A DNA stretch of 64,000 bases, taken from NCBI RefSeq assembly GCF_037996825.1, contig NZ_JBBNAC010000001.1, positions 3,720,001 through 3,784,000 on the forward strand, written 5' to 3'. Position 1 is the first letter of the stretch; each line of letters begins with the position of its first letter. The translations under genes were made by a program, and so were the position numbers. Positions 4,999 to 35,054 of this stretch are shown piece after piece. The notes beneath the pieces are model-generated. The model worked only from the letters and a program-made list of their open reading frames with translations. It was not told the DNA's origin and ran no database searches. The DNA is from Bdellovibrio sp. BCCA (GTDB lineage Bacteria > Bdellovibrionota > Bdellovibrionia > Bdellovibrionales > Bdellovibrionaceae).

Positions 4999-5031
4999 AA
5001 AGCCTGCGCGATTTTCGGCAGGCTTTATTTT
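4999..5031 (+). terminator. intrinsic terminator after the exonuclease gene
   Basis: Inverted repeat AAAGCCTGC (4999-5007) / GCAGGCTTT (5018-5026), with a ten-base loop, followed by ATTTTAG. It lies 16 bases after the exonuclease stop. An A-rich stretch precedes it on the left, so it may also stop leftward transcripts coming from the small-peptide repeat. Confidence 0.85.
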
Positions 5032-5038
5032 AGATTGA

Positions 5039-5098
5039 GTGGCACTAAGACCGCCTCGTCCTTGATGATTTCCCGAGTTTTAAGCTCAGCTCACCCAC
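5039..5098 (-). ncRNA. conserved RNA-like domain downstream of small peptide, copy 1
   Basis: This stretch matches copy 2 at 34992-35054. On the minus strand it opens with GTGGGTGAG and closes with GTGCCAC, so GTGG/CCAC can form an outer stem. Inside is a hairpin CTGAG-CTTAAAA-CTCGG and a second small hairpin GGT-CTTAGT-GCC, separated by ATCATCAAGGACGA. Two C-G pairs of copy 2 are U-G here, which keeps pairing on this strand but breaks it on the other. Two short indels relative to copy 2 argue against a conserved reading frame. I do not recognise the RNA family. Confidence 0.5.
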
Positions 5099-5152
5099 TA
5101 GCGATACTTGTCCGTTTTTGCGTCTTAAGTCCTATGGGGTTATATGGATTCT

Positions 5153-5251
5153 CTAACTACATGAACTGATTAGTAAAAACAAAATCAGTATAAGTAGTTT
5201 AAGAAATTCCTTAAACTGCCGAAAAGAGCTATGTGTTTTTAGCCTTTTCAT
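5153..5251 (-). CDS. 32-residue hydrophobic lipobox peptide, copy 1
   Basis: Short reading frame: basic N-terminus (MKRLKTHSSFRQFK), hydrophobic core FLKLLILILFLL, then ISSCS and TAG. Copy 2 at 34842 has the same length, the same FLKLL start of the core, the same LISSCS end and the same CAAAGGAGA-rich ribosome site, while the N-terminal third differs, as expected for a selected peptide. ISSC fits a lipobox ([LVI][ASTVI][GAS]C); if processed, the mature product would be only Cys-Ser on a lipid anchor. Alternatives are a membrane-acting type I toxin or a leader peptide. Function unknown. Confidence 0.65.
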   Translation of the reverse strand: MKRLKTHSSFRQFKEFLKLLILILFLLISSCS

Positions 5252-5252
5252 A

Positions 5253-5279
5253 AGAGTCTCCTTTGCAGAGGAAAACTCT
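5253..5279 (-). promoter_or_regulatory. hairpin burying the Shine-Dalgarno of the small peptide, copy 1
   Basis: On the minus strand AGAGT (5279-5275) pairs with ACTCT (5257-5253), and TCCT pairs with AGGA of the AAAGGAG ribosome site, with an intervening small internal loop. In copy 2 the same structure is formed by different bases (AGAATTC/GAATTCT), so pairing is conserved while sequence changes. This points to translational control of the peptide. Confidence 0.6.
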
Positions 5280-5288
5280 CATCCATAA

Positions 5289-5318
5289 GAAAGCGGTCCT
5301 AGGGCCGCTTTCTTTATT
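5289..5318. terminator. terminator-like hairpin, possibly bidirectional
   Basis: GAAAGCGG (5289-5296) pairs with CCGCTTTC (5305-5312) and the stem extends inward; TTTATTT follows on the plus strand and CTTATGG on the minus strand. It can end leftward nadE transcripts. The better T-tract is on the plus strand, so it could also end an RNA antisense to the small peptide. It is conserved in copy 2. Confidence 0.65.
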
Positions 5319-5407
5319 TGCAATGATCATCGCAAAATCAGATCTTAATAGTTCCTAATAGGTTGATAATCTTATTTGAACTTCGGACGCTGATGGCAAT
5401 CGACTAT

Positions 5408-34780: not shown

Positions 34781-34803
34781 AAGCGGCCTCAAAGACCGCT
34801 TTC
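34781..34803. terminator. terminator-like hairpin before the small peptide, copy 2
   Basis: AAGCGG (34781-34786) pairs with CCGCTT (34796-34801). The T-rich side (CTTTATTT) is on the minus strand, while TCTAAG follows on the plus strand. It could end the zincin transcript or, better by T-run, an RNA antisense to the small peptide. Conserved with 5289-5318. Confidence 0.5.
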
Positions 34804-34811
34804 TAAGGACT

Positions 34812-34840
34812 AGAATTCCCCTTAGCCAAAGGAGAATTCT
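34812..34840 (+). promoter_or_regulatory. hairpin burying the Shine-Dalgarno of the small peptide, copy 2
   Basis: AGAATTC (34812-34818) pairs with GAATTCT (34834-34840), then after one mismatch CCTT (34820-34823) pairs with AAGG (34829-34832). The ribosome site AAGGAG (34829-34834) is entirely inside the stem. Copy 1 keeps the pairing with other bases. Confidence 0.65.
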
Positions 34841-34841
34841 T

Positions 34842-34940
34842 ATGAAAAGATACCTCACCAGTATCCTTTTCGTCAGTTTTTGGAATTTCCTAAAGCTGCT
34901 TTTGCTGATTTTATTTTTATTAATCAGTTCATGTAGTTAG
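34842..34940 (+). CDS. 32-residue hydrophobic lipobox peptide, copy 2
   Basis: Short reading frame with start MKRYLTSILFVSFWNF, core LKLLLLILFLL and end ISSCS before TAG. It has the same length as copy 1 (5153-5251), the same FLKLL and LISSCS residues and the same ribosome site. An uncharged, Leu/Ile-rich core preceded by basic residues and ending in ISSC resembles a lipoprotein signal peptide with only Cys-Ser left after processing. It also resembles the size and hydrophobicity of Ibs/Ldr-type toxins. No function can be assigned from sequence. Confidence 0.65.
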   Translation: MKRYLTSILFVSFWNFLKLLLLILFLLISSCS

Positions 34941-34991: not shown

Positions 34992-35054
34992 GTGGGCGAG
35001 CCGAGCTTAAAACTCGGGGATAATCATCATGGACGAAGCGGGCTTTGAGGCCAC
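34992..35054 (+). ncRNA. conserved RNA-like domain downstream of small peptide, copy 2
   Basis: Outer stem GTGG (34992-34995) with CCAC (35051-35054); inner hairpin CCGAG-CTTAAAA-CTCGG; second hairpin GGC-TTTGAG-GCC (35041-35052, competing in its last bases with the outer stem). The linker AATCATCATGGACGA is nearly the same in both copies. It could be the 3' part of the peptide mRNA, a separate small RNA, or an RNA made from the other strand. Not matched to a known family. Confidence 0.5.

Follow-up and report, generated by a model that had tools for sequence, protein, structure and literature searches.

What might a gene be for if its product, read from the sequence, is almost nothing beyond a lipoprotein signal? 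This question is raised by a small open reading frame of Bdellovibrio sp. BCCA that lies in the window analysed here, that is, the whole stretch of 64,000 nucleotides from positions 3,720,001 to 3,784,000 of contig NZ_JBBNAC010000001.1. The frame has 32 codons and its product, MKRYLTSILFVSFWNFLKLLLLILFLLISSCS, ends in LLISSCS before the stop, with Cys31 encoded at 34932-34934 (TGT), Ser32 at 34935-34937 and the TAG stop at 34938-34940, and a Shine-Dalgarno sequence, AGGAG (34830-34834), stands ahead of the ATG. A preliminary description had reported that both copies in the window end in a hydrophobic run, ISSC, Ser and a stop codon, which was confirmed at 34842-34940 and 5153-5251, and a third copy was added from the same chromosome. 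The copies and their coding parts are as follows:

34842 to 34940, plus strand: copy 1, open reading frame for a hydrophobic peptide of 32 amino acids, stop included, one of 12 intact members of a group here called clade A
34923 to 34937, plus strand: lipobox of copy 1 (I28-S29-S30-C31) with the final Ser32, the Cys being invariant in 12 of 12 members
5156 to 5251 (5153 to 5251 with the stop), minus strand: copy 2, the second in the window, open reading frame for the 32-residue peptide MKRLKTHSSFRQFKEFLKLLILILFLLISSCS
5028 to 5319, minus strand: entire structured element of copy 2, its DNA 77% identical to copy 1 over about 290 bp
G000:C1:516966-517061, same chromosome outside the window: copy 3, open reading frame for MKSKPSQEAFRQFKKFLKLLVLILFLLVSSCS, within a whole element at C1:516905-517173

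Screening the 738 small open reading frames of the window (20 to 60 amino acids) for a lipoprotein rule in the manner of PROSITE PS51257 (K or R in the n-region, a hydrophobic run and a lipobox Cys at position 15-35), with two residues at most after the Cys, returned copies 1 and 2 only. The same rule was satisfied by 2 of 801 small frames in the reversed window, and the lipoprotein motif alone is thus weak evidence. The strong evidence that the terminal Cys is a real feature is its conservation among relatives. Searching related genomes at the DNA level and by profile, where E-values for peptides of 32 residues are fragile at the weak end, recovered the 12 intact clade A members in seven genomes and two genera: three in the window genome, one each in G001, G008 and G019, and two each in G014, G015 and G035, the last belonging to a different genus of the same family. 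The terminal Cys is present in all 12 of these sequences, which are kin and not independent samples, and they end in [ILV][ST]SC[SG] or LSCCS, the lipobox context being [ILV][ST]S-C in ten and LSC-C in two. Exactly one residue follows the conserved Cys in every member, or two when counted from the alternative Cys of L074 and L075, whose SCCS ends offer two candidates. The comparison of C-terminal residues across more copies that the preliminary description had proposed thus sustains its view that conservation of the Cys argues for its use, since the residue is kept across seven genomes in a lipobox context and at a position and spacing like those of lipoproteins.

The Cys is written TGT in three clade A members and TGC in nine, the Ser preceding it is TCA, TCG, TCC or AGC, and Ser or Thr ahead of the Cys is kept despite switches of codon family (AGY/ACN and TCN/AGC). 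Over the last 16 codons of clade A, pS was 0.73 and pN/pS was 0.31, which indicates amino-acid constraint, and over codons 2-13 pN/pS was 1.14, the N-terminal codons being free of such constraint. Selection on the Cys at the protein level is regarded as likely.

The remainder of the peptide is arranged as a lipoprotein signal would be. The Cys stands at residue 30-33, and the hydrophobic stretch between the last charged residue and the lipobox is about 10-12 residues long, much as in longer lipoprotein-like proteins of the genus. The lipobox was found in 12 of 12 clade A members, while the full lipoprotein rule, including K or R in the first seven residues, held in 11 of 12 (L009 has neither among them). 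These longer proteins carry similar lipoprotein signal peptides (MKIGLLILFFLITGCS, MAILKLFTLMAFLIISACS) and were matched by the clade A profile, and the window genome encodes two Lgt-like and two LspA-like homologues (G000:C1:1028695, 3287700, 3142053 and 3280460; L134-L137). No clade A peptide has the mature domain that follows the Cys in bacterial lipoproteins, and the Pfam lipid-attachment profile matched one of 11 clade A members, below its cut-off. From these sequence features, lipidation of the Cys by Lgt would be an even bet, and a cut by signal peptidase II is a plausible step to which we would give a little less than even odds.

The main rival at the protein level also starts from a type I toxin-like membrane peptide, but its terminal Cys would never be lipidated and, lying in the periplasm, would form a disulfide-linked dimer. 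HokB provides the precedent of a functional periplasmic Cys, as its Cys46 forms a DsbA-dependent dimer required for depolarisation (PMC8309996); moreover, an N-in topology would place the clade A Cys in the periplasm, and the paired Cys residues of the two SCCS members are in line with this possibility. However, a dimerising Cys needs neither the [ILV][ST]S context nor a hydrophobic run as short as 10-12 residues, and both are kept here, which makes the disulfide an unlikely explanation of the conserved tail.

The open reading frame is embedded in a predicted structured mRNA of about 270 nt, whose folds comprise a 5' hairpin, a hairpin sequestering the Shine-Dalgarno sequence, a start-codon hairpin, another towards the 3' end of the frame, a 3'-UTR loop and a long 5'-3' pairing. 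In copy 1 these parts are located as follows, with the result of exchanging arms between members where applicable:

34781 to 34801, plus strand: 5' hairpin AAGCGGCCUCAAAGACCGCUU, which doubles as the 5' arm of the long-distance pairing and resembles an intrinsic terminator when read on the minus strand
34812 to 34840, plus strand: hairpin sequestering the Shine-Dalgarno sequence (arm swap, 0 of 5000)
34842 to 34873, plus strand: start-codon hairpin within codons 1-11 (arm swap, 0 of 5000)
34894 to 34938, plus strand: hairpin in the 3' portion of the frame, with the Cys-Ser codons in its outer stem (inner arms, arm swap, 0 of 5000)
35001 to 35017, plus strand: 3'-UTR stem-loop with the U-turn-like 7-nt loop CUUAAAA, which reads CUNNNAA in most relatives
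35034 to 35053, plus strand: 3' arm of the long-distance 5'-3' pairing, its partner at about 34783-34801 (arm swap, 0 of 5000)

The hairpins and the pairing of the 5' end with the 3' end, complementary over about 20 pairs, were predicted in nearly all members. Native arms paired better than arms exchanged between members in the Shine-Dalgarno hairpin (-15.1 versus -10.5 kcal/mol), in the start-codon hairpin (-9.9 versus -5.9 kcal/mol), which draws on the variable N-terminal codons, and in the 5'-3' pairing (-35.1 versus -25.5 kcal/mol), with 0 of 5000 permutations in each case and again inside each clade; the inner arms of the 3' hairpin of the frame gave -6.9 against -3.8 in clade A (0 of 5000). 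Since the arm swap keeps arm composition constant and does not preserve relatedness, this covariation is strong evidence and not formal proof. Loops of the U-turn type, which that of the 3' UTR resembles, serve the pairing of antisense RNAs. The stem-loop at 35001-35017 (GGGACUUAAAAUCCC in sister clades) also closely resembles the anticodon arm of tRNA-Leu, a likeness that is probably a convergence on the U-turn loop. Two family members (L005 and L043) are without the portion of the 3' UTR that bears this stem, and one relative in G003 (L007, 1501-1564) consists of the 3'-UTR part of the element only, being either a relic or a stand-alone RNA.

The same RNA architecture is found around other peptides. 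Several sister clades, with peptides resembling MNNQHCSYRPILKLIKQILLIILVLIKIIKELF in clade B, MRKTTYLRIRRVLKITKAVLIIILLILTMVAKFKSL in another set and MTNLLSRQDKIRRFLKVAKVFLGLVLLALKILKLLFELLE, in tandem, in a third, share it with clade A and end in charged helices without the Cys. When 141 genomes of the order Bdellovibrionales were scanned with a sister-clade profile, 34 gave matches at E <=0.001, six of the matches being in the window genome; several dozen of these peptides were read by eye, the weaker matches only in part, and none of those read has a terminal Cys. In most of them an Arg comes directly after an aromatic or aliphatic residue close to position 10, and many of their leaders have TGCAAA ahead of the first hairpin. 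Both end sequences differ from those of clade A and their complementarity is kept, as in L045 (GCUUUCGCAAGGUC with GACCUUGCGAAAGC) and L047 (GCUUUCGCAGAGUC with GACUCUGCGAGAGC), the exception being B_L046, in which the 5'-3' duplex is weaker. Common descent of the clades is supported by a hybrid (L061), in which a peptide of the clade B type is joined to a clade A-like 3' UTR, and by the presence of both clades in G035. The window genome itself has about six sister-clade genes (G000:C1:12666, 247933, 272015, 433123, 672580 and 2575732; L113-L117 and L078), the one at 433123 with an altered end. On some contigs sister-clade genes are repeated about 0.7-3 kb apart (L080, G017:C10:126600-131700; L121, G004:C24:700-3600; L132, G056:C3:194200-197700), a spacing that recalls tandem arrays of type I toxins.

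These comparisons bear on the view that the Cys-Ser codons are conserved for the sake of the RNA stem in the 3' hairpin of the frame, the Cys being incidental in a plain membrane toxin. The codons are indeed predicted to pair (UGU-AGU or UGC-AGU) in the outer stem of most clade A copies, next to inner arms that covary, and part of their conservation could come from this modelled stem. Yet the outer stem is unpredicted in L044, L074 and L075 and rebuilt differently in L009 and L041, and the Cys is kept in all five, so that the RNA alone fails to explain it; besides, the sister clades share the 5' hairpins and the pairing of the two ends and have no Cys. We consider an incidental Cys quite improbable. 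The preliminary description had held that further homologues lacking the Cys would speak against its proposal, and such homologues exist in the sister clades of this toxin-like superfamily, whereas none was seen within clade A. It had also set a membrane toxin against a Cys in use, an opposition that does not hold, as the evidence points to both a toxin-like RNA family and a conserved lipobox Cys.

Considering the locus as a whole, a small hydrophobic peptide is combined with a concealed ribosome-binding site, successive hairpins and pairing of the mRNA ends of the kind known from aapA3 and hok, and its copies are multiple and in part decayed, so that a type I toxin-like gene is its likely identity. 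The peptide is shorter than 60 amino acids with its own start and ribosome-binding site, and in silico the mRNA folds would block the initiation of translation through the covarying hairpins at the Shine-Dalgarno sequence and AUG and through the 5'-3' pairing. The sole hint of an antisense RNA is a terminator-like site formed on the minus strand by the 5' hairpin and an A tract; no antisense promoter was recognised at the locus and the antisense RNA was not located. Copies are multiple and differ between close species, and some are decayed (L007, L040, L042 and L082), which would suit a toxin that the cell can do without. A non-autonomous mobile element or structured repeat with inverted-repeat ends, of which the frame would be a by-product, could also have complementary ends, occur more than once per genome, decay and lie at differing sites, but purifying selection acts on the C-terminal codons and every intact member retains the ribosome-binding site and ATG, flanked by covarying hairpins, leaving this account with little probability.

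The closest likeness among known systems is aapA/isoA of Helicobacter and relatives, which also encodes a short hydrophobic peptide at several chromosomal loci, with the Shine-Dalgarno sequence hidden by an upstream complementary sequence and by structure inside the frame, and with 5'-3' long-distance pairing (PMC6733600); in aapA3, metastable hairpins hide the Shine-Dalgarno sequence before the 5'-3' interaction forms (PMC6733600). Unlike aapA/isoA, the family described here has a different peptide, a lipobox tail in clade A and no Rfam or Pfam match, and its predicted fold leaves the Shine-Dalgarno sequence in a local hairpin instead of the 5'-3' pairing. The hok/sok system shares a 5' hairpin able to refold with the 3' end (PMC6733600), whereas the present peptide is shorter, lacks sequence similarity to Hok and comes with no demonstrated sok-like RNA. 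Toxins of the TisB type resemble the K/E-rich amphipathic helix ends of the sister clades (ILKLIKQILLIILVLIKIIKELF), unlike clade A, which has no charged tail and ends in a lipobox.

The element is covered by no tRNA, by no Rfam family at gathering threshold and by no family of Pfam, NCBIfam or PADLOC at cut-off, and homology to aapA or hok was not detected, with no match above the cut-off in Rfam, Pfam or NCBIfam. The weak matches that did appear were set aside: those to Rfam were far below gathering scores, those to LPAM_1 and LptM (Pfam, NCBIfam) were below cut-off and reflect the lipobox only, and a match between a sister peptide and PADLOC NsnC, over 20 residues at E 0.0098, was taken as chance. 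No relatives were found in the viral contigs, the GTDB genome contigs (searched with the peptide pattern) or the plasmids; searching with a DNA pattern for the 3' loop of the sister clades matched one viral contig (L084), but the matched site seems to belong to a tRNA-Leu gene next to an integrase and is no relative. The sequence of APsRNA7 of B. bacteriovorus HD100 (PMC3627812), inspected in G006 at the corresponding coordinates, is no family member, and a DNA-level synteny search for the downstream gene gave no match in other species.

Taken together, the best explanation of the locus, to which we assign a probability of about 0.55, is a type I toxin-like peptide whose tail in clade A would have been turned into a minimal substrate of Lgt and signal peptidase II. 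By analogy with hok and aapA, the full-length mRNA would be translationally silent, 3' trimming would free translation and an antisense RNA would repress the mRNA. The product would be a small peptide inserting in the inner membrane, its clade A tail presenting a putatively complete lipoprotein signal made up of a charged n-region, a hydrophobic run of 10-12 residues, a lipobox and the Cys. Lgt would add a diacylglyceryl group to Cys31 and anchor the tail, and signal peptidase II may then free the 30-residue signal peptide and a lipidated Cys-Ser or Cys-Gly. Either the lipidated precursor or a stable freed signal peptide might act on the membrane, the latter in the manner of the pCloDF13 bacteriocin release protein, whose stable signal peptide works as a separate entity according to titles cited in PMC5727409. 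Colicin lysis and bacteriocin release proteins are likewise small lipoproteins, and the functional signal peptide of the pCloDF13 protein is a further point in common, but the mature part of clade A would be two or three residues. It is tentatively proposed, as a doubtful extension, that the toxin works through the lipoprotein pathway, either because a lipidated substrate consisting only of a signal peptide occupies or blocks signal peptidase II or because the stable freed signal peptide harms the cell, lipoprotein maturation being the target or the activator. For comparison, the mature lipopeptide of colicin lysis and bacteriocin release proteins is about 28 residues long, and their genes lie in bacteriocin operons.

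The preliminary description had also likened the freed signal peptide to enterococcal sex pheromones, active peptides from lipoprotein signal peptides, and the cut would indeed free a hydrophobic peptide of 30 residues. Nothing in the analysis supports a secreted signal of this kind, whether the freed peptide or the lipidated dipeptide, and we hold it to be highly improbable: enterococcal pheromones are cut from lipoproteins having a mature domain, whereas here there is neither such a domain nor a known conjugative partner, and the silencing structure of the mRNA favours a toxin. As for the readings themselves, a freed signal peptide, a lipopeptide and an incidental Cys within a toxin are not mutually exclusive.

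Overall, these genes apparently form a previously unnamed family of tiny membrane-peptide genes across the Bdellovibrionales; no toxin is mentioned in a transcriptome paper on Bdellovibrio (PMC3627812), and searching the literature for Bdellovibrio together with type I toxin-antitoxin systems returned no report of such a family. If the proposed reading is true, it would add a large and apparently undescribed type I toxin-like family in bacterial predators, and clade A would provide a naturally occurring test of the minimum of mature protein that the lipoprotein pathway requires. Moreover, a toxin activated by Lgt or signal peptidase II, or jamming either of them, would link RNA-silenced toxins with a pathway targeted by antibiotics.
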